From Bradyrhizobium prioriisuperbiae (lineage in GTDB: Bacteria; Pseudomonadota; Alphaproteobacteria; Rhizobiales; Xanthobacteraceae): a stretch of 64,000 nucleotides of DNA. Within the stretch, counting starts at the first letter, position 1. Every line of letters starts with the position of its first letter. Below, piece by piece: positions 2,249-12,169 of this stretch. Made by a program: the position numbers and the translations under genes. The stretch is taken from positions 4,638,501 to 4,702,500 of the forward strand of contig NZ_CP135921.1 of assembly GCF_032397745.1 (NCBI RefSeq). Reading direction: 5' to 3'. The notes beneath the pieces are model-generated. The model had not been told where the DNA came from, ran no database searches, and worked only from the letters and a program-made list of their open reading frames with translations.

Positions 2249-3178
2249 ATGAACAAAATCGATATCGATCAGATCAAGCTGCGGCGGCTGGATTTTTCAA
2301 TGCTGATGATTTTTCGCGATCTGGTCCGGCTGCAGAAGACCACGGCGGTCGCCGCGCAGCTTCGCCTCAGCCAATCGGCGATCAGCCATGCGCTGGCGCG
2401 GCTGCGTGAGGTGTTCGCCGATCCGCTGTTCATGCGCCGGCCCAACGGCCTGGAACCGACATTCCGCGCCATGGAGCTGTTGCCCAAGGTGGAGACGATC
2501 CTGCGGATGGCGCAGGAGGCGCTCGATGTCCCGACGCAGTTCGACCCAACGTCATCCACCCGCTCGTTCCGGCTTGCCGGCAACGACCTGGTCGGCGGCG
2601 TGATCACCCCGCCGTTGCTTGGCCTGTTGCGGCGGGAGGCGCCGGGCTGCCGTGTCGCGTTCCAGTTCGCGGTCGGCGTCGAGAGCTTGAATGCGCTGAG
2701 GAGCAACGACCTCGACCTTGCGATCGGACGGATCTGGAATCTGCCCGATGATTTTCAGGCGACGCCGGTGTTCGAGGAAAGTTTCGTCGTTGTGGTGCGC
2801 AAACATCATCCGCTTGCGCGCGCCGGCAAACTGGGCCTGGAGGCCTATCTGGCGCTGGACCACATCCTGGTCTCGTTCCGCGGCGGCTACTGGGGCATGG
2901 TCGACCAGGCGCTGAAACGCCGCCGCCTGAAGCGGCGCGTGGTGGCGAGTGTGCCGATGTTCATGACGGCGATGACGGCGGTGGCGCAAAGCGATCTCGC
3001 CGCCACCGTGCCGGCACGGCTGGCCGCCAAATATGCCCCGCAGCTCGGGCTCAAGGTGTTCGAGGCGCCGGTGAAGATCGACGCCTTTACGATCAGCCTG
3101 GTGCGGCATGCGCGCTCGCTCGCCGATCCCGGGCTCGACTGGCTGGCCGGCAAGATCATGCAGGCCGAGCAGGGCTGA
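2249..3178 (+). CDS. LysR-family transcriptional regulator
   Basis: A 309-residue protein of typical LysR length. Residues 10-70 form the winged HTH (LQKTTAVAAQLRLSQSAISHALARLREVFADPLFMRR), close to the NodD/NahR-like subgroup in its DPLFMRRPNGLEPT stretch. The rest is a periplasmic-binding-protein-like effector domain (FRLAGNDLVGG... onwards). It is transcribed away from the molybdenum hydroxylase gene, the usual arrangement for a pathway-specific activator. The start at 2249 leaves room for a short palindrome just upstream. It converges on the beta-propeller gene, with only 24 nt between the two stop codons. The inducer is unknown. Confidence 0.9.
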   Translation: MNKIDIDQIKLRRLDFSMLMIFRDLVRLQKTTAVAAQLRLSQSAISHALARLREVFADPLFMRRPNGLEPTFRAMELLPKVETILRMAQEALDVPTQFDPTSSTRSFRLAGNDLVGGVITPPLLGLLRREAPGCRVAFQFAVGVESLNALRSNDLDLAIGRIWNLPDDFQATPVFEESFVVVVRKHHPLARAGKLGLEAYLALDHILVSFRGGYWGMVDQALKRRRLKRRVVASVPMFMTAMTAVAQSDLAATVPARLAAKYAPQLGLKVFEAPVKIDAFTISLVRHARSLADPGLDWLAGKIMQAEQG

Positions 3179-3202
3179 CGGACCCAAGCGGTCCACATGC
3201 GC

Positions 3203-5098
3203 TTACCGACTGATCCAGATCTCAAGGTCCGTATTTTCTATCGTCTTAACCATGACCGCACGCAACGGGCGGCCCGGGATACCTGCTGATCGCGCGCTGC
3301 TCGCCACGGCCGCAAGACGTTCGGCAAGCGCGCCGTCGCCACGCGGACCAAAACGGACCTCGTTCACATTTGCGGCCTCAGGACGTTGCTCGCCGCCTTG
3401 ATCTGCGCCCTGAATGTTCCAACCCGTCTGCAGCAGCGAGTCGGCAAATTGCACCATAACGGGGCGCTCAATGCTCCCGGCAAACCGGATCGTCACGTTG
3501 GGGCCGGCCGGAAGCATCGTCAGCTGCGGAGCTTGTTGGGGGGTGACCTGCTCAGTTGGCGGCGTGGTGCGCGGCGACGGTAGCGGCAGCGCCGCCGTGC
3601 TGGCGCAGCCTGGTCCGGTTGGAAGATCGGCAAATGGCAGGGCGGCGACGCGCCGCAGCGATGACAGATGATGAATGCGCACACGACCATCGAGGCTCGC
3701 GGCGGCGAGATATTGTTCGTTGTGTGAGACCGCGAGGCGGCTGATCGGTCCGCCATGGCCCCACAGCGTCGATGTCACGGAGATCGAAGGAATGCGTGTG
3801 GCCAAGCTGCTGGATCCCGCGAACATCGCGACGTTGCCGAGATCTATCTCCCTGATCGAACAGTCCTGTGCCGCCACGTAAAGTCGCGTCCCGAGCCGTG
3901 ACGACAGCGCCGATGCGGTGGCCTCAACATCAAGCGGCAGCCGTACCATGGTCATCGAGGGGGATGGCAAGGCAGCCGCGGGGCCGGTCAGGCCGCGCCT
4001 CTCCAGGCGCGCAACGTAGATGTCTCCGTTGGATGTGCGAACGGTCAGCAATCGACCGTCGTCCGACATCTCCAGGCTGTCGGGCGCCAGCAGAGGTGGG
4101 GGCGTGCCTTCGGGAAACAGAATGTCTTGCGATACGATCGCGCCCGAGGAGCGCGCCGGATACCAGGCCTTGATCGATCCGTCGCTGGCGGCTGAAGCGA
4201 GCTGTGCCCGGCTTTCATCCAGACTCCACGCCCCGGCAGTGGCGAGCGCCACCACCGCCGCCCCGTGGCTTCCTGCCCCTTTTCTGGCGGCAGTTTGTTC
4301 TGCACTCACGATTGGCGTGCGGTCCTCCCGGATGAAGGCGATGCGGCCATCGATGCCACCGACAGCGATCCGGCCTGGACTGGGGAGGGCAATCATCGCC
4401 GTCACCGTCGTATCCCAGGGCAGCGCAGGCTCGAAGCGCACGGGTTGCCTGGCTTGATCGGGCTGGGATTGTGCGTTGGAGGCCGATGTCCGCCAGACGG
4501 TTCGCGGGTCGGGTGCGATCGCCACGATGCCGCGTTCGTTGCTCCTGTCCGGATTGCGCAGGCGAGTTGCACCTGTGACATAGAGTGCACCGTCGTCGTC
4601 GACCACAGCCAGTCCGCCCGGTATCACGAGTTCGAACGAGGTCGTGCGGGCGACCAGGGCGCCATCGTCCGCCGGCTGCGCGATGGAGGCGGCGAGTTCG
4701 GCACGAGCACCCGTCAGAATGGGAGCCAGCGGCAGCGGAGCGGACCCGACAAAAGCGGATGACGAGGGAATGGTGCCGCTGGGCTGAACAAAGGTTGACG
4801 CTCTGCGATCATCCATAAACACGACGGCGGTGTCGTTCGCGAACCAATGCATCCCGCTCATTGCCGCCAGTCTTGTCCCTGGGGTGCGCGCGGCCAGTGG
4901 TGCGCTATCCGCGATCCACTGTTGCGACCATTGCGCGATCCACAACCCGCCGAGCAGGCCGACCACGCCCGCCGTCAGGATCGGCGCCCGCTTGACGATC
5001 ATGACCGCAAAAGTCGCATTGATGCGAAGGTGGGCGAGCGTGATGCCGATCAGCTCCGCCCAGCGTGGTCCGGAGGTGCGCGGGGTCACATCGGTCAT
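3203..5098 (-). CDS. Membrane-anchored beta-propeller (WD40-like) protein, last gene of the protease/MoxR locus
   Basis: 631 residues. One hydrophobic helix at about 38-56 anchors the protein, leaving a large non-cytoplasmic or peripheral domain. Repeats have WD40 character: GHGGPISRLAVSHNEQYLAAASLDGRVRIHHL at about 445-480 is a canonical blade, and SASDGSIKAWYP-like and VGGIDGRIAFI segments are weaker blades. The last 100 residues (VTIRFAGSIERPVMVQFADSLLQTGW to EIWISR) look like a separate alpha/beta domain of the LytR_C or SPOR-like sort. The start codon overlaps the stop of the 913-residue gene by 4 nt (ATGA), so the two are translationally coupled. Function is unknown. A scaffold or sensor role is inference from the fold. 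Confidence 0.75.
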   Translation of the reverse strand: MTDVTPRTSGPRWAELIGITLAHLRINATFAVMIVKRAPILTAGVVGLLGGLWIAQWSQQWIADSAPLAARTPGTRLAAMSGMHWFANDTAVVFMDDRRASTFVQPSGTIPSSSAFVGSAPLPLAPILTGARAELAASIAQPADDGALVARTTSFELVIPGGLAVVDDDGALYVTGATRLRNPDRSNERGIVAIAPDPRTVWRTSASNAQSQPDQARQPVRFEPALPWDTTVTAMIALPSPGRIAVGGIDGRIAFIREDRTPIVSAEQTAARKGAGSHGAAVVALATAGAWSLDESRAQLASAASDGSIKAWYPARSSGAIVSQDILFPEGTPPPLLAPDSLEMSDDGRLLTVRTSNGDIYVARLERRGLTGPAAALPSPSMTMVRLPLDVEATASALSSRLGTRLYVAAQDCSIREIDLGNVAMFAGSSSLATRIPSISVTSTLWGHGGPISRLAVSHNEQYLAAASLDGRVRIHHLSSLRRVAALPFADLPTGPGCASTAALPLPSPRTTPPTEQVTPQQAPQLTMLPAGPNVTIRFAGSIERPVMVQFADSLLQTGWNIQGADQGGEQRPEAANVNEVRFGPRGDGALAERLAAVASSARSAGIPGRPLRAVMVKTIENTDLEIWISR

Positions 5099-7836
5099 GC
5101 GGGCGGCCTTTCCGACGGTGATCCGGCGGGCGTTTCGGGCGTCTCCTCGCGGCGTTCGGTCTGGGACGTCTCGCGGGGGGGCGATTGCGATTCCGGCTCA
5201 CCGCTCGCTGCGGGCGGAGCGGGAGTGGATGACGTGTCCGACACGCCGGCAGGTCGCTGAGGTGACAGGGATGGAAGCAGCCTTGGCTGGTACGGCAGTG
5301 AACGGCGCAGCAGGATGCAAACGCCCGCGGTGACCAGGCAGAACAACACGAAGACGAACAGTGGAAACCAGGCTCCTATCGGATGCGGGCTGGTGCGGAA
5401 ATCGGGGACGAGCGATGCGGCGCCGATGCCGGCGCCGGCGATCAGCGCCGCGATGCCGGCTTCGCGCCGGAGAACGGCGCGGCCGGCGGCGGCGCGCAGC
5501 AAGGCTTCCCGCTCGGGTGTGACGGGGGGCGGTTCAAGATTCACGTTTCCGGCAAGAGCACGCACCATCACCGCGTCCGGAGGCAGCGCCAGCGCGCCGG
5601 TGCGCGGCCACCAGATCGCCAGCGGCCCCGGGGCTTCGCCTGTCCGCGGTGTGAACAGCGCGCGAATGACCTCGCAGGCGCGCTTGAGGTCATCCCCGTC
5701 GATCGCGGCCAACACTTCGCGGCGCAGCCATTCGGGCATGCGTCCGGTGCGGAACCAGGGCAGCGTGGTCAGGCGTTCGAAAATGCGGCGGTCGCCCGGC
5801 GTGTCGCGGAACACCATCGGTGCTTCCGGGTGAGGGCCGGCGCGAAGATGCATGCCGATATGCTGCGTCAAGTCGAAGCGCAGTTGCGGATAGATCGCGC
5901 AACCCGCATGCCAGAGAAATCCTTTTGGCCCAAGCCAGCGTCGCAGGTCGCTGATGATCTCGGCGATGCTCTCGGGCGACGGCGCGAGATCGGTGACGAG
6001 CAGCACCCTGTCGGGCAACAGATGCGGGCCATACGAAACCCTGGCGCCGGAGCCAAACTTGTCCGCAATGGCCTTCCACCAGACGTCGAGCTTTGCCAGC
6101 CCGATGACGCCGCGGGCGCGTTGAAGTGCGAGGCGGTGGCTGGCGCGCCCATAGGGTAGCCGGAAGCCCTGTGCAAGATCGGCCGTCATGTCCTGTGTCG
6201 TGCGGCCGAGCGGGACGTTGAGGTCGCGCGACATCGCAAACTCCACCTCACCCCAGTCGCCGACGGGCACAGGCGTCAGCACCATCCGTTCCTCCCAGAA
6301 CGACAAGCCCTTGCCGACGGCTTCGCGCACCCGTCCGGTGATGCGCTCGACGAGGTCTCTCCCGTCCGTCACCAGGATTAGGCGCGCATTGGGATGCAGA
6401 TCGCGAAGCGAGGGCAAGGCGAGCAATTCCTCCCGTCCGTTCAGCCCGCCGACGTGGGCCCGCGTCTGCGCCGCCACCACCCGGCGGACGAACAGCGGGT
6501 CGCGTTCGTAATCGTAGATGCTCATCGACAGGCCGCGTTTGGCCATCGTTTCCATGACGCGGCGGACACGCAGGCGCTCATGGTCATGCGGCTGCCAGCG
6601 CTGGATGATGACCAGATAATCGACCATGCGCTGGACGCGCCGCATCACCGGCTCGGCGTAGCCAGCCTGGCGCAGCACGGCGGTGACGCTGCGGCGCGCA
6701 TCGAGACGGCGCCCGGCCACGGGCCGGTAGCGCATCAGTGCACGCAAGCTGTCCCGCGTGATGAATGGCTCCGGCGCGCGGCTGTCGACGGCGCCGCTGG
6801 CCTGCCGGATGCCTTCCAGCGCCGGGGGGCCGCCCAGCGCCCGCATCTCCTCATCCTTCCAACGTTCGAGCACGTCGTTGGTGCGGCGGCGAAACCTGAA
6901 CGGCGCATAGAAAATGAACAGCAGCAGCGGCAGGCCCGCGAGCAGGAGCCACGCCCGCGACCAGGGGAGCGGCGCCGCTGCAGTGGATGCAGGCGTCGTG
7001 CCGGTCGCCACGGCGAGACTGCCGGGCTGCAGCGCCTTGTCGTCCGCGACGATGCGGCTTTCGAACAGGACGCGCGGCAAGTTCGCAGACATCGCGGCGA
7101 TTTCGGCGGTCAGCCGTTTGAGACTGGTAATGCCGCGGGCGTCGGCGGTCAGCGCATCGTCGGGCGGCAGCGGCCATCCGCGCAGCATAGCGACCAGGAG
7201 CGTATCTGACGTGCCGAGTTGCGGTGTCCGGCCGGCATGTGCGGCGGCCAACAGGCGCGGCGTTACGCCGCTCTGCGTTGCAGCGCGAGTGTCGAGAAGT
7301 TGGCGGGTGGTCGCCATGGCACGGTCGTAGGCTTCGGCAGCTCGCTTGTCCAAATCTGCCGTCGGCGGCGGGGACGGTCGAAGCACAGGAACGATGATCC
7401 GCCGCGAGTTCTTGATCGGGTCGGGTACGGCTTCGATGATGGGTGTGGAATGCATGACGACGGCCAGGGATAACGCGCCCGCGGCGGCCATGCGGACCAG
7501 CCTCCAGATGCTGGTCGGTTCCGGCGGTTCCGGTGGCTGAGGCGCGGGCGGTTCGGGCGCGAAGCCGGCGAGAACGTCCGCCAGCAGGCGCCGTGCGGCG
7601 CCGTTTTCGGCGAGGATGGGGGCGAGATAATTGATCCAGACCTCAGGGCTGGCGCCATGTTCCGCAATGCCGCCGGGACTTCGCAGGTCGGTGATGAGAC
7701 GATGTAGGTCGATGCGCTGGCCGGGCGTCATGCGCCATGCGCGGTCGCCGCTCTCGCTCAGCCGCCGCGCAGTCTCGTACACCACGATGAGCTCGTCGGG
7801 ATTGATCGCGATGGGGGCAGCGGCCGCGTCGGACAT
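5095..7836 (-). CDS. Large membrane protein with degenerate vWA-like central domain, partner of the MoxR ATPase
   Basis: 913 residues. Residues 13-93 are helical and could be a death-like adaptor domain. A proline-rich linker (94-108) precedes a membrane helix at 113-129. A second helix lies at about 288-308, and one or two more near 800-850 before a Pro/Ser/Glu-rich tail. The central soluble part has an alternating strand/helix pattern with VDYLVIIQR, LSMSIYDYERDP and ARLILVTDG, which recalls a von Willebrand A fold but lacks the DxSxS metal site. It starts 4 nt after the MoxR stop and overlaps the next gene by 4 nt. MoxR ATPases commonly pair with vWA proteins, which supports the reading, but the domain call needs structure prediction. 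Confidence 0.7.
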   Translation of the reverse strand: MSDAAAAPIAINPDELIVVYETARRLSESGDRAWRMTPGQRIDLHRLITDLRSPGGIAEHGASPEVWINYLAPILAENGAARRLLADVLAGFAPEPPAPQPPEPPEPTSIWRLVRMAAAGALSLAVVMHSTPIIEAVPDPIKNSRRIIVPVLRPSPPPTADLDKRAAEAYDRAMATTRQLLDTRAATQSGVTPRLLAAAHAGRTPQLGTSDTLLVAMLRGWPLPPDDALTADARGITSLKRLTAEIAAMSANLPRVLFESRIVADDKALQPGSLAVATGTTPASTAAAPLPWSRAWLLLAGLPLLLFIFYAPFRFRRRTNDVLERWKDEEMRALGGPPALEGIRQASGAVDSRAPEPFITRDSLRALMRYRPVAGRRLDARRSVTAVLRQAGYAEPVMRRVQRMVDYLVIIQRWQPHDHERLRVRRVMETMAKRGLSMSIYDYERDPLFVRRVVAAQTRAHVGGLNGREELLALPSLRDLHPNARLILVTDGRDLVERITGRVREAVGKGLSFWEERMVLTPVPVGDWGEVEFAMSRDLNVPLGRTTQDMTADLAQGFRLPYGRASHRLALQRARGVIGLAKLDVWWKAIADKFGSGARVSYGPHLLPDRVLLVTDLAPSPESIAEIISDLRRWLGPKGFLWHAGCAIYPQLRFDLTQHIGMHLRAGPHPEAPMVFRDTPGDRRIFERLTTLPWFRTGRMPEWLRREVLAAIDGDDLKRACEVIRALFTPRTGEAPGPLAIWWPRTGALALPPDAVMVRALAGNVNLEPPPVTPEREALLRAAAGRAVLRREAGIAALIAGAGIGAASLVPDFRTSPHPIGAWFPLFVFVLFCLVTAGVCILLRRSLPYQPRLLPSLSPQRPAGVSDTSSTPAPPAASGEPESQSPPRETSQTERREETPETPAGSPSERPPA

Positions 7837-7840
7837 GTGG

Positions 7841-8905
7841 TCACGTCGTCATGACGGCCACGCGGGGCGGCGCGGCGGGCAGGGCATCGAGGGCGACCTT
7901 GAAGACCGGCAGGTCCGATTTGAGTTTGATGAGTGCGGGGGCAAGCCGCGGCATCCAGGCCGCGAGCGTCATTTCGTAAGGACGTGCCGCCACGATGCGG
8001 CCGGCATCGATCAGTTCGGCGATACCGGGATCTTTTTGCATGCCGCTTTTGCGCAGTGTGCCGAACAAAGTCAGCAGTGTGCCGCGCTCGACCTCCGGAA
8101 ACGGACCGTCGCGGCCCGATGAGCCGAAGTGGAGATCGAGTATCTCCTTCAGAACGTTGGGTTCGGGAAACTCGATCGCGAGGAACACGCAGCGCCGCAA
8201 AAACGCATCCGGCATCTGGCTTTCTTCATTTGATGTCGCGATGACGATCGGCCAGCGGTCGGTGGGTATCTTATCACCAGGCGGCGTCGCGTCGCGCTCG
8301 CCGGCCCTGTTTCCGAGCTCGGGAACTCGGAAACTCATATCCTCGATCTCCCGCAGCAGATCGTTAGTGAAGTCGCGCGGTGCCTTGTCGATCTCGTCGA
8401 TGATCACGACGGATCGTCGCGGCTGGTTGGGCGATGCCGCATGTCCCGAGCCTTTCAGCAGATCCTTCACTTGGTCTCGCGGATGGGCGTCCAGGATGGC
8501 CCGGCCGAGCCCCTGATAATGGATGAAGTCGCCGGACGTCATTTGCGGCGCTGCCGCCCGCTCTTCCGGTGTTCTGGTCGCGTTCAGTTGCGCTTCGCGA
8601 AACCGCCCGACCGCATCGTAGGTGTAGAAAAGCTCGCGGGCTTCCGATGACGATTTGGTCGAGAAGAAGTACAGCGACCCGATGCCGAGCCGCCGCGCGA
8701 CGGCGTAGCCGAGTTCGGTTTTTCCGCATCCCGGTTCACCGGCGACGAGTAGCGGTCTCTTCAATCCGATCGCCACATCGACCGCCGCCTCGATGGCCGG
8801 CGTGAACCGATAGATGCGGCCCTTTTCCGAGGGGTCGTCGTTATCGAGCAACTGCGAACTGCTGATGTCGGAAGGGCTGGACGAGAGCTCCATGAAGATC
8901 GTCAT
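7841..8905 (-). CDS. MoxR-family AAA+ ATPase
   Basis: 354 residues. Walker A is GEPGCGKT at 56-63. Walker B is VVIIDE at 166-171, followed by IDKAPRDFTNDLLREIE, typical of MoxR. Sensor 1 is IATSN at 222-226, and the arginine-finger region is AFLRRC near 235-239. MoxR proteins are chaperone-like remodelling ATPases that act on a vWA partner. Here the partner candidate is encoded immediately downstream. The start overlaps the stop of the upstream protease gene by 4 nt (ATGA). The first 28 residues are a disordered acidic/serine stretch. Family assignment is firm; the substrate is unknown. Confidence 0.92.
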   Translation of the reverse strand: MTIFMELSSSPSDISSSQLLDNDDPSEKGRIYRFTPAIEAAVDVAIGLKRPLLVAGEPGCGKTELGYAVARRLGIGSLYFFSTKSSSEARELFYTYDAVGRFREAQLNATRTPEERAAAPQMTSGDFIHYQGLGRAILDAHPRDQVKDLLKGSGHAASPNQPRRSVVIIDEIDKAPRDFTNDLLREIEDMSFRVPELGNRAGERDATPPGDKIPTDRWPIVIATSNEESQMPDAFLRRCVFLAIEFPEPNVLKEILDLHFGSSGRDGPFPEVERGTLLTLFGTLRKSGMQKDPGIAELIDAGRIVAARPYEMTLAAWMPRLAPALIKLKSDLPVFKVALDALPAAPPRVAVMTT

Positions 8906-10695
8906 GGCGTGTTCATCTCCGTTTCGCTGCGGATCTGGGCAATGGCGGCGTTAGTGATCGGTCCTTTGAGCATGGCGATCACCTCGGCCATGTAGAATTT
9001 GTCTCCGGGATTGAACCCGGCGGGGATTTCAATCGGCGTGTTGCTTTTCTTCCAGGCGGTGTTGATGTTCGTTCGCCACGCTTCGATGTCGTTGCGCGTC
9101 ACTTTCGGCAGCGCGAAGCTCGCGCCGCAGTGGCGCGGAGGCATTTGCGTCCACAATGGTGCGATCCGGCCGAGATCGACCTGGACCACCGGCAAATGCT
9201 CGTAGACCACGAGGGCCTGAAGCGCCTGCCAGGCGTTCGCCGTATGGATTTTCTTTTCAAGAATATATTTTGCACACTCCTCGCCGAGGATTTCCATGTA
9301 CATCCTCTCTTCGTCCGGCGAACGCTCGGCGAGATCACTCACTGTGTACACGAGAAGCGTTCGTTCGGCGATCGCCCAGGATCCGAACTCATTCGCGATC
9401 TCCTCGCGCGCCTGCTGCGGCGGCGTATTGGGGGCGGGCCAGTTCAATCCAAAGCTCCTCCAGGGCGGAGCCGCGCCTTCAGTCTCCTTCGATCCGCCGA
9501 GATAACGCGCGATGAAGTCCGGCGCGCTCTTCGCTTCTGCCTGCACCACGCCGATCATGATACGTTCGATGAACTCTTTGACTTGATCGTCGTTCTGCCG
9601 GCACAAGACGTGATTCACATGAACGGTCGCGGGACCGTTTCCGCGGAGCTTGGCCTGGATCAGGTTATTCTGCTTGTCGCGATCGATCAGACTTACGGCG
9701 GCCATGACGCGTTGGTCGATCGCGCTCTGGGTGCAGCTACTCAGTTGTTGCCCCGCGTCCATCCGGCGGACTTCGATGGGTGGCGGTTCGCTGCCGATAA
9801 GTTTGGCATGAAGCGCCGGCGATGTGACGGCGAGGTCCGCAAGGATGCGGTCGATCGGGATGAACTGGTTGTTGGTGTTGCCACCATTCTCTTTCCCGGC
9901 ATTGTGCAGTCCGACCAGCGTCGTGTCGTCGAAGACGGGAGAGCCGGAGGATCCCCTGCCTGTCGATGCGCCGTACTTCATGCGCAGGCCGTTCGCAATG
10001 AGCTCTGACTCCTTGGTGTCCGATGTCTGTAATGATTGCTGGCTGAACCCACCGCCTGTTCCGATGCGCTCCGGAAACTGGAAAACCGTGAACTTCCGAT
10101 TGGCAAGGTCCGTGCGGTTCTCTTTCATCATGATCCAGCCAAGCGGCCGGACCTCCGGATTTAGGGGCGTTTGCCCCGCATACTTTCCGACGGGTGAGGT
10201 CAATTTCAGAATGGCGTAGTCGAACAAAGGCTTTCTCGTCACGGGATCGAGGTATCTGTCGTCGTCATCGAGACCGAAATCCACGTCGCCGGCGGCGGTG
10301 GGGCTCAGCGCGACGAAGGCCTCCTTCTCGCTTTGCGGCAGGGCGATCCAGTTATGCTCGTCGTCTTCATACTGACCATCCGTGAAGAAATTGAAGCGGC
10401 ATTTGATCAGGCTGGGCGCGAACAATTTGCCGTCCTTGTCGGACACCACGTGATAGTTGGTCATGACCAGATCTTCCGCGATCAGGAATCCGCTGCCGCG
10501 GCCTGAGCTGCCAACCACGATGGAGCAAACGCAGGCGAACCGCCGGGCTTCGAGCGTTTCGCGTTCGGAGGCTGCAACAAACCTGCTTTTTGGATTGAGG
10601 GCCTGCAGGTTGTTCTGTTTGTCCTTTGGCGCGCTCTGCTGGCCGGACCAGGCAGATCTCAACGGTGCCAGGAGTTGTGAAAGCCCAAGCGGCAT
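8902..10695 (-). CDS. Trypsin-like serine protease with C-terminal inactive-STAND-like domain
   Basis: 597 residues. The protease domain spans about 48-300, with the triad readable as H82 (TNYHVV), D159 (FDYAIL) and S250 (GRGSSGSP). No signal peptide or membrane helix is seen, so it is probably cytoplasmic. Residues 310-590 are a separate alpha/beta region beginning RVMAAVSLIDRDKQ, which resembles the start of inactive STAND modules that follow proteases in bacterial conflict proteins. The string DKQNNL occurs twice, at 25-30 and 340-345. It is the first gene of a tightly packed four-gene unit and is divergent from a second protease. Protease assignment is firm; the C-terminal assignment is inference. 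Confidence 0.85.
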   Translation of the reverse strand: MPLGLSQLLAPLRSAWSGQQSAPKDKQNNLQALNPKSRFVAASERETLEARRFACVCSIVVGSSGRGSGFLIAEDLVMTNYHVVSDKDGKLFAPSLIKCRFNFFTDGQYEDDEHNWIALPQSEKEAFVALSPTAAGDVDFGLDDDDRYLDPVTRKPLFDYAILKLTSPVGKYAGQTPLNPEVRPLGWIMMKENRTDLANRKFTVFQFPERIGTGGGFSQQSLQTSDTKESELIANGLRMKYGASTGRGSSGSPVFDDTTLVGLHNAGKENGGNTNNQFIPIDRILADLAVTSPALHAKLIGSEPPPIEVRRMDAGQQLSSCTQSAIDQRVMAAVSLIDRDKQNNLIQAKLRGNGPATVHVNHVLCRQNDDQVKEFIERIMIGVVQAEAKSAPDFIARYLGGSKETEGAAPPWRSFGLNWPAPNTPPQQAREEIANEFGSWAIAERTLLVYTVSDLAERSPDEERMYMEILGEECAKYILEKKIHTANAWQALQALVVYEHLPVVQVDLGRIAPLWTQMPPRHCGASFALPKVTRNDIEAWRTNINTAWKKSNTPIEIPAGFNPGDKFYMAEVIAMLKGPITNAAIAQIRSETEMNTP

Positions 10696-10948
10696 CAGAG
10701 CGCTCCACCGCCGGGCGCTTGACTATAAGTGCACTGAAGTCGGACAGACCTGAACGGCGAGGCGGTGATTGGCCTACCCTCGCTCTGAAACTGCGGCTCG
10801 AACGGTTCGAGCCGATGGAACGTCTGCCCGCTTCCAACCATTTTTCCGCCGGATCGAATTTTATCAAAGGTTGATGAACGGAGAATTTACACGTCGCTCA
10901 AAGCAGTGCAATCTCAAAGGTGCACGGCTTCAAATGAGGGGTGGTCAG
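10696..10948. promoter_or_regulatory. Divergent promoter region between the two protease genes
   Basis: About 250 nt separate the start codons of the two divergent proteases. No conserved operator was recognised. An AT-richer patch around 10845-10870 is the most likely core promoter for the rightward gene. The rightward frame is open back to 10769, but the start at 10949 is preferred because of its ribosome binding site. Confidence 0.4.
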
Positions 10949-12169
10949 ATGAGCAGCAGTTCAGCTGGGAAATTCCGCCGCATTGGCACGCTTGCCACCA
11001 TCAACCGGTCGCGCGCCGAGAGCGGAGTGGAGACGACCGGTGCGACAGAAGCAATCGAGGCGGAGGCGGTCGGCGCAGACGTCGTGAATGCCTCGGTCTC
11101 CGCGCTTCAGGATCATATCGCGCGTGTCCGCGGCGGCAGCGGACAAATGACCGATAGCGATCGTGCCTTGATCGAGACCGGCCGCCGTGCCGGCGAAAAA
11201 CTCGTGGCCGAAGGAGCGACCGCACATTTGTCCCCTTCGGAGGAAGCCGCGCTTGAAGCGATCGCGGTGGCTGATGGCAGCCGGCCCGCACTCCTCCTGC
11301 GCGACGATACGTTCGATCCTCATGATGCAACGATCGGGGACTGGTCGAAAAAGCTTCAGGGCATTTCGGACGCGCTCAAGGCCGCGTCGCAAAGCGTTGG
11401 GCGTGTCAATCTTGGTGGGGAGCATCTCGGCACGGGCTGGATTGTCCGCCCGGGTTATGCTGTCACCAATCGACATGTCGCGCAGGAGTTGTGCAAGAAT
11501 CCGCAGGAAAAGAAATTGACCTTCGGTCCGCCCAAGGGGGCGACCATCAGTTTCGGCCATCAGACCGGCGAAGCGGTGCCGCGTCCGGCTCATTCGATCG
11601 AAGCCATCGTGTTTGCGGGCGAGGATTACATCGATCCTTTCGGCGATAACAAGGCCAAACTCGACCTCGCGATCCTGAGACTCGCGCGAGCACCGGACGA
11701 GGCGCTGCCCCCACCTCTGCCATCCTTCTTGTTGCCGGCGGAACAGACGGTCGCGGGAAGGGACGTTTTCGTGATCGGTTATCCGGGGCCGGCGTTCCCT
11801 CGATCCGATCTGCCGGAAAGCGTCGTTCTGAGTCTGATCGGCTCCGCCGTGAGCCTCAAACGCCTGTCGCCCGGCGAAATCGCGCTGCCGGCCGGCACGG
11901 TCGCCGGTGACACGAAATCCCGGACGATTGCGCACGACGCAACGACACTTGGCGGGAGTTCGGGGTCGGCGATCCTGGGCTTCGATCAGGCGAAGAAGCC
12001 ATTGATGCTTGGACTCCATTTTGGCGGTTACGAGGTCAAATATGGTCCGGGTGGCGTCATCAAGCGTCGTGGTCGCAATTTCGCGCACAGCTTTGCGGCG
12101 ATGCAGGACGTCATCGCCGCCGTTGACGCAGCTATCGCGAAAGACCGGACCGAGCAGAAGCTCGCGTGA
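10949..12169 (+). CDS. Second trypsin-like serine protease of the locus
   Basis: 406 residues from the ATG at 10949, chosen because GAGGGG ends about 9 nt upstream; in-frame starts at 10874 and 10934 are possible. The triad is H176 (TNRHVA), D239 (LDLAIL) and S338 (GGSSGSA). The first 120 residues are mainly helical and charged, with no signal peptide. This part could be an inhibitory propeptide or an adaptor domain. It differs from the divergent protease in having its extra domain at the N-terminus. It ends at a hairpin (12177-12196). Family is firm. A role as effector or as target of the neighbouring protease is inference. Confidence 0.85.
   Translation: MSSSSAGKFRRIGTLATINRSRAESGVETTGATEAIEAEAVGADVVNASVSALQDHIARVRGGSGQMTDSDRALIETGRRAGEKLVAEGATAHLSPSEEAALEAIAVADGSRPALLLRDDTFDPHDATIGDWSKKLQGISDALKAASQSVGRVNLGGEHLGTGWIVRPGYAVTNRHVAQELCKNPQEKKLTFGPPKGATISFGHQTGEAVPRPAHSIEAIVFAGEDYIDPFGDNKAKLDLAILRLARAPDEALPPPLPSFLLPAEQTVAGRDVFVIGYPGPAFPRSDLPESVVLSLIGSAVSLKRLSPGEIALPAGTVAGDTKSRTIAHDATTLGGSSGSAILGFDQAKKPLMLGLHFGGYEVKYGPGGVIKRRGRNFAHSFAAMQDVIAAVDAAIAKDRTEQKLA

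Follow-up and report, generated by a model that had tools for sequence, protein, structure and literature searches.

A four-gene protease-MoxR-vWA-WD40 operon of Bradyrhizobium prioriisuperbiae: a probable divergent, membrane-embedded variant of iSTAND-type ternary conflict systems

The genome of Bradyrhizobium prioriisuperbiae (9.08 Mb, one contig), a soil bacterium, contains four tightly packed minus-strand genes that raise a simple question: do they form one system, and if so, of what kind? They lie in a stretch of 64,000 nt, here called the window, and encode, in the order of the operon, a trypsin-like protease (8902-10695), a MoxR-clade AAA+ ATPase (7841-8905), a membrane protein of 913 residues (5095-7836) and a membrane-anchored WD40 beta-propeller protein (3203-5098; WD40 2.8e-8). 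The outer gene pairs overlap by 4 nt (8902-8905 and 5095-5098) and a 4-nt gap (7837-7840) separates the middle two, while a second trypsin-like peptidase gene is divergent to the operon. An initial annotation had described this gene set, and its coordinates, order, strands, overlaps and gap are all borne out by the gene positions. We find that the four genes are one conserved unit, and sequence comparison makes it probable (roughly 0.6) that this unit is a divergent, membrane-embedded variant of the iSTAND-type (inactive-STAND) MoxR-vWA ternary conflict systems, a published class that is itself a sequence-based prediction, conflict role included (PMC7159879, PMC8195603; what we say of published systems refers to parts of the text of these sources).

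A conserved unit of four genes

All four genes are present, in unchanged order and on one strand, in the window and in 4 out of 4 other readable loci with a full-length relative of the 913-residue protein, i.e. L035 (genome G084), L080 (G1037), L118 (G1170) and L003 (Bosea caraganae). As order and strand are kept in five out of five loci, the protease, MoxR, 913-residue protein and WD40 protein form one conserved unit. The count covers loci with readable DNA; relatives of the 913-residue protein from metagenomes and other sources stand outside it. The four of these genomes with stated groups span no fewer than four genera and three families. The initial annotation had asked whether five genes co-occur as a unit: co-occurrence holds for the four operon genes in all five loci, but the divergent trypsin gene is next to the operon in only two of them.

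The distribution of the unit is sporadic. Among 391 genomes of the family 2 have a full-length relative of the 913-residue protein, among 337 of the order 3 and among 398 of the phylum 2, counts that all include the own genome; any match at all occurs in 4 of the 391 family genomes. Nearly all listed genomes were scored on their best two first-look candidates only. In one set of matches to this protein, all sources with a name are Bradyrhizobium. Flanking-gene synteny gave nothing usable (3 of 6 genomes, 35-37% identity). The G+C content at third codon positions (GC3) is 0.72 in the WD40 gene, 0.80 in the 913-residue protein gene, 0.75 in MoxR, 0.74 in the protease gene and 0.67 in the divergent trypsin gene, as compared to 0.84, 0.94, 0.88 and 0.83 in the nearest clear neighbours; the low values fit an origin elsewhere, but some other predicted frames of the window are equally low. 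There are no tRNA genes in the 64-kb window. A plasmid home of the operon is unsupported (one distant plasmid match of the 913-residue protein, from Azospirillum, and 11 plasmid records for MoxR at less than 60% identity), and so is a viral home, as no relative was found among viral contigs, a phage collection lying outside this search.

Relationship to MoxR-vWA-iSTAND systems

The MoxR protein has an intact Walker A (GEPGCGKT) and Walker B (VVIIDEID) motif and matches AAA_5 at 1e-10. In the phylogenetic tree the MoxRs of the five four-gene loci form one clade (support 100/99), which lies within a wider clade (99/99) made up of the four-gene MoxRs, 10 MoxRs of the sister loci described below, the MoxR of L002 and a row from a Rhizobium plasmid; 6 of those 10 sister loci carry a Pfam-confirmed iSTAND domain. 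Seven MoxRs of other cyanobacterial iSTAND loci adjoin the 99/99 clade (84/87) and 13 other MoxR-type rows fall outside. Several branches are long and the order within the 99/99 clade is not fixed; 4 of 17 candidate comparison rows were left out (three open reading frames above 450 aa and one locus without a P-loop frame). Judged by this tree, the MoxR of the operon groups with those of ternary systems. The NCBIfam model of the MadB-family ATPase also matches the window protein (E 4.7e-17, 62 bits as against a cut-off of 475). On the Rhizobium etli plasmid pRetIE4771e (L117) a MoxR gene adjoins hypothetical genes and genes of an MBL-fold hydrolase, an HNH endonuclease and an S8 peptidase, possibly another MoxR conflict locus.

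The 913-residue protein is not recognised by any Pfam model. Its AlphaFold2 model (mean pLDDT 73.9) consists of a four-helix N-terminal domain (residues 13-90), a probable membrane segment (about 110-135), a helical domain that is probably periplasmic (159-274), a second membrane segment (about 290-320), a degenerate vWA core predicted to be cytosolic (about 356-560), a helical region (about 620-727) with the motif LPWFRxGxMPxWLR and a C-terminal membrane hairpin (793-843), the topology being based on hydropathy and flanking charges. The fold matches are to NorD/midasin vWA domains, which taken alone is unspecific. Residues 368-712 match the vWA-type protein of the Anabaena iSTAND locus (blastp 8.5e-24), a homology that stops short of the four N-terminal helices. 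By this homology the protein is identified as a degenerate vWA, in line with the vWA-like core of the initial annotation. The DxSxS MIDAS motif is absent from all 16 aligned vWA rows, the window copy included. One protein, P0005, was kept out of this alignment: in its 1492 aa a protein of the 913-residue type is joined to a transporter-type protein (PF00083/PF07690), which is either a true fusion or a chimera.

The protease has a trypsin-like part (about residues 45-300; Trypsin_2 7e-12) with a conserved triad (H82, D159, S250), followed by a C-terminal domain (about 320-597). Strands and helices are predicted to alternate in this tail (strands 360-366, 413-417, 446-452, 493-500 and 523-528; helices 372-387, 426-440, 460-480 and 534-547), and a Walker A motif is found in none of 13 family members. 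Comparison of the family profile of the tail with 16 iSTAND domains that pass the Pfam cut-off gave an hhalign score of 39.1 (E 1.2e-4, 188 columns), the 13 of them without a trypsin fusion gave 39.0 (E 1.6e-4), and the 16 plus four unconfirmed sister sequences gave 55.2 (E 3.9e-7); an earlier iSTAND set without trypsin-fused members gave a weaker E of 0.0027. As controls, 60 column shuffles reached at most 19.0 and five real decoy profiles 9.6-29.0. L055 (internal stops) was left out of the iSTAND set and the distant P0028-P0030 out of the protease alignment. Since the comparison with Pfam-confirmed iSTANDs exceeds both shuffles and decoys, the tail is likely to be a divergent iSTAND domain, which would make the protease the third component of a ternary system. 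Foldseek and VIA searches with the full-length protein returned protease-domain matches only. A search of 289 class genomes with PF19995 gave sub-threshold matches in 7 genomes and none over the cut-off; nonetheless, single proteins of the same class exceed it (L086, L119, L120, L122 and L123).

Fifteen sister loci, those with no more than a distant relative of the 913-residue protein (blastp E <=1e-3, or a profile match), were read (L001, L002, L066, L068, L081-L086 and L119-L123), ten of which keep the order third component, MoxR, vWA (L001, L081, L082, L084, L085, L086, L119, L120, L122 and L123). Of the remaining five, L083 and L121 reach a contig end; neither L066, whose iSTAND frame contains stops, nor L068 gave a MoxR match, and the flank of L002 is without a third component. 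Six of the ten third components exceed the PF19995 cut-off (L001, L086, L119, L120, L122 and L123), L081 and L085 match below it, and L082 matches the Anabaena iSTAND protein (blastp 6e-5); L084 has neither a PF19995 match nor a blastp match to that protein. Their N-termini are trypsin (L081, L085, L086, L123), TIR (L082, L084, L119, L120) or nucleotide cyclase (L122) modules, with no recognised module in L001. Fusions of trypsin and iSTAND occur elsewhere, namely in L048 (a cyanobacterial genome), L086 and the Azospirillum locus L123. In L086 (6900-11099) the vWA component is long, with 18 hydrophobic stretches over threshold, and in L123 (7323-11558), on the Azospirillum plasmid AZO_p2, a long vWA component is annotated as O-antigen polymerase; both loci have a Trypco2-type gene upstream.

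The WD40 protein has an N-terminal hydrophobic stretch (about 17-49, one or two segments), the N-terminal side of which is more positive in net charge in five out of five relatives, by small margins. The protein is therefore possibly oriented N-in/C-out with a periplasmic propeller. Its relative in L035 contains PG_binding_1 (1.8e-12) and the one in L003 matches this family below the cut-off (9.7e-4), as do L118 (8.1e-4) and L003 (0.0082) for SPOR. Taken with the membrane topology, the peptidoglycan-type domains found among the relatives suggest monitoring of the envelope or an action on it. In L068, a Bacteroidia locus (2803-8360), the gene after that of a CHAT-iSTAND protein encodes a membrane protein of vWA type that bears a WD40 propeller at its C-terminus, with no adjacent MoxR match; by its domain order this membrane protein is the fused counterpart of the 913-residue and WD40 genes. 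The comparison supports a view in which the WD40 protein takes the place of the C-terminal sensor/effector region that is usually fused to the vWA. A different contig of the same genome (L002) has a MoxR-vWA pair.

It is instructive to compare the operon with the published systems. The iSTAND ternary systems (Kaur et al. 2020, PMC7159879, subsystem 2) share with it the MoxR, a vWA with a predicted 4-helix N-terminus and membrane segments, a peptidase and probable iSTAND third component upstream of MoxR, and peptidoglycan-associated domains in a relative; the class as described includes trypsin-iSTAND fusions, CoxE-type 4-helix vWA N-termini, N-terminal membrane segments and peptidoglycan-associated domains (PMC7159879, PMC8195603). 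As in the Anabaena iSTAND locus, the vWA-type gene directly follows MoxR, and the peptidase module is N-terminal to the iSTAND-like domain, a position held by trypsin, TIR, CHAT or cyclase in the sister loci. The operon differs in that PF19995 misses its iSTAND-like domain, its vWA protein is without the DxSxS motif and carries a C-terminal hairpin in the membrane, and a gene of its own encodes the membrane-anchored WD40 part. The iSTAND2/TERNS3 systems (PMC8195603) also place the C-terminal sensor/effector part on a gene apart from the vWA, and iSTAND2 is associated with trypsin, but the third component of the operon compares with iSTAND, iSTAND2/TERNS3 being compared by description only.

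The beta-propeller systems (subsystem 4, bpMoxR PF20030) have in common with the operon a MoxR, a divergent vWA, a beta-propeller and membrane segments. However, the propeller of the operon is not fused to the vWA, its P-loop is GEPGCGKT rather than GXXXTAKS, and a peptidase is present, whereas beta-propeller ternary systems are said to be without conventional effectors. We reject membership in this group because the propeller is on its own gene and the window MoxR scores 12.3 bits with PF20030, below the cut-off of 27. The MoxR systems linked to diversity-generating retroelements (DGR; PMC10907252) likewise have a MoxR beside a protein with an unrecognised N-terminal part and, in DGR 9, a trypsin-like peptidase; by eye, the open reading frames around the operon include no reverse transcriptase or lectin-type gene. 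The N-terminal extension of the DGR-linked MoxR targets may be the degenerate vWA described here. The sister locus L084 (G825; 2450-10916) encodes a TIR protein, a MoxR and a degenerate-vWA-FGE protein, and also a reverse transcriptase (RVT_1 1.7e-21), a bAvd-like gene (3.3e-14) and a second FGE gene.

Among Pfam matches with E <=0.1 there is no family named VMAP, a family that the library probably includes. PADLOC protein models match MoxR (IetA 7.7e-6 and others), the protease (RT-Protease_XI 2.7e-6) and the WD40 protein (HEAT-ARM_XIII 0.0021), and none matches the 913-residue protein. The system had been put forward as a candidate undescribed one. The class, trypsin-iSTAND fusions included, is published (PMC7159879, PMC8195603), but we found no description of the four-gene layout in the literature searched, which did not extend to the source-data tables of these two papers, where such loci may be listed. 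What looks new is the layout, with the WD40 part as a separate and possibly periplasmic membrane protein that has a peptidoglycan-binding domain in one relative.

Several observations weigh against this assignment. PF19995 finds no match in the window protease, and its best match elsewhere in the genome has an E of 1.93. Against cyanobacterial and Bacteroidia iSTANDs alone the tail compares weakly (E 0.056, 0.13 and 0.16), and against the five nearest sister domains alone it scores 29.9 (E 0.0031), on a par with the best decoy (29.0). In the window copy of the 913-residue protein the first membrane segment falls below the hydropathy threshold. The topology of the WD40 protein hangs on small charge differences, and this protein has no recognised peptidoglycan domain in the window or in L080. 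Finally, the neighbouring genes, judged by eye and not scanned with defence models, mostly concern transport or metabolism and offer no defence context.

The divergent trypsin gene

The divergent gene is on the plus strand, starting at TTG 10769 or ATG 10937 and ending at 12169. Its product matches Trypsin_2 (5.7e-13), and no NucA domain is found among its Pfam matches. If ATG 10937 is the start, the intergenic region spans 10696-10936 and probably holds divergent promoters; a single weak promoter-like match was found there (10840-10867), a count not above that of shuffles. The homologue in G1037 (L080:12061-14397, plus strand) is a divergent trypsin-NucA protein (E 1.8e-21 to the window protein, NucA 1.3e-30), so that at L080 a MoxR ternary system and the trypsin/NucA 'System 3' (PMC7159879), both predicted conflict systems, are physically linked. 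The fetched flanks of the other three loci contain no homologue. Relatives occur in 9 of 296 family genomes, own included, and none of the 8 other genomes is among the 4 of 391 with a 913-residue protein match. Seven fetched loci (G566, one of the 8 genomes, lies outside them) gave 8 proteins of this type, 7 of which were scanned: four have NucA, two an S8 subtilase and one trypsin alone. At one locus the neighbouring gene is a trypsin with EAD1, an arrangement that 'System 3' is described to include (PMC7159879). By these relatives the divergent trypsin is kin to trypsin-NucA and trypsin-S8 proteins and belongs to the predicted trypsin/NucA 'System 3', although the window copy lacks NucA and stands next to a MoxR operon. 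The protein also matches the PADLOC candidate model 'nacht' (PDLC03010, E 3.3e-29), with no NACHT domain among its Pfam matches. We regard it as linked, but not obligate, to the operon, because its relatives occur without a 913-residue protein match and adjacency is limited to two of five loci.

A possible envelope-to-protease switch

Which way would a signal travel through such a complex? By analogy with the class we infer a defence function. In the published model the systems are off until a signal arrives, whereupon the MoxR-vWA pair remodels the complex with ATP; the iSTAND component senses, and effectors, peptidoglycan-associated domains among them, are C-terminal to the vWA (PMC7159879). 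Besides the ATPase, the only enzyme of the operon with a complete active site is the trypsin, therefore release or activation of the protease is the likely output. Following the published model for the off-state and the remodelling, the vWA protein and the iSTAND domain would keep the trypsin inactive in an inner-membrane complex in the resting cell. The vWA would change its conformation when the propeller and the helical domain in the periplasm register a disturbance of the envelope, or when the iSTAND domain binds an intruder, and the MoxR ring would then use ATP for a remodelling of the complex that frees the trypsin or activates it. This protease would cleave targets in the cytosol, perhaps including, in some genomes, the divergent trypsin(-NucA) encoded next to it, and the infected cell would arrest or die. 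The idea of an ATPase-driven, membrane-linked switch that controls a cytoplasmic protease thus survives as the best reading, but the extension to "one or two" proteases does not sit well with a second trypsin found at two of five loci.

A more specific version, in which a peptidoglycan-linked periplasmic WD40 sensor signals through vWA and MoxR to the cytosolic trypsin-iSTAND protein, would be an immune switch working from the outside in: it would respond to a breach of the envelope and, in some genomes, set off an adjacent trypsin/NucA cascade. We put it forward tentatively, and it may well be wrong. The direction could be reversed: the iSTAND domain would sense an invader inside the cell, such as nucleic acid (a proposal made for iSTAND in PMC8195603), and damage or sealing of the envelope would fall to the WD40/membrane part; this would agree with the published placement of sensing in iSTAND and of effectors, peptidoglycan-associated domains among them, C-terminal to the vWA (PMC7159879). 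Yet the complete active site besides the ATPase is that of a trypsin borne by the iSTAND-like protein. Moreover, WD40 and PG-binding/SPOR-type domains bind rather than catalyse, and we consider the reversed direction doubtful, if a serious candidate.

Both directions assume a conflict system, and the operon might instead serve envelope stress or complex assembly in the manner of RavA-ViaA or NorQ-NorD, the MoxR-vWA pair assisting a membrane complex and the protease providing quality control. Several characterised MoxR-vWA couples work so (PMC7159879), and the membrane topology, the metabolic look of the neighbours and the MadB-family match, far below cut-off as it is, point the same way. The sporadic presence of the unit, a MoxR clade common to conflict-type loci and a GC3 under that of most clear neighbours make this unlikely. 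A single five-gene system with the divergent trypsin as obligate second effector appears quite improbable: the adjacency in the window and, in NucA-fused form, in G1037 speaks for it, but three loci lack the gene in their fetched flanks and the eight other family genomes with relatives have no 913-residue protein match, so that we reject an obligate role. A chance neighbourhood of unrelated genes is refuted for the four operon genes, given the 4-nt overlaps and an order that is kept in five genomes, and nothing was found in its favour.

The probable place of the operon among divergent ternary systems has consequences beyond classification. Homology gives a membrane protein that Pfam does not recognise an identity as a degenerate vWA. 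As a test case an alphaproteobacterial variant this compact would be tractable: it has four genes, a protease whose active site is complete and a partner that spans the membrane. From it one would learn how a cytosolic protease could be coupled to envelope sensing.

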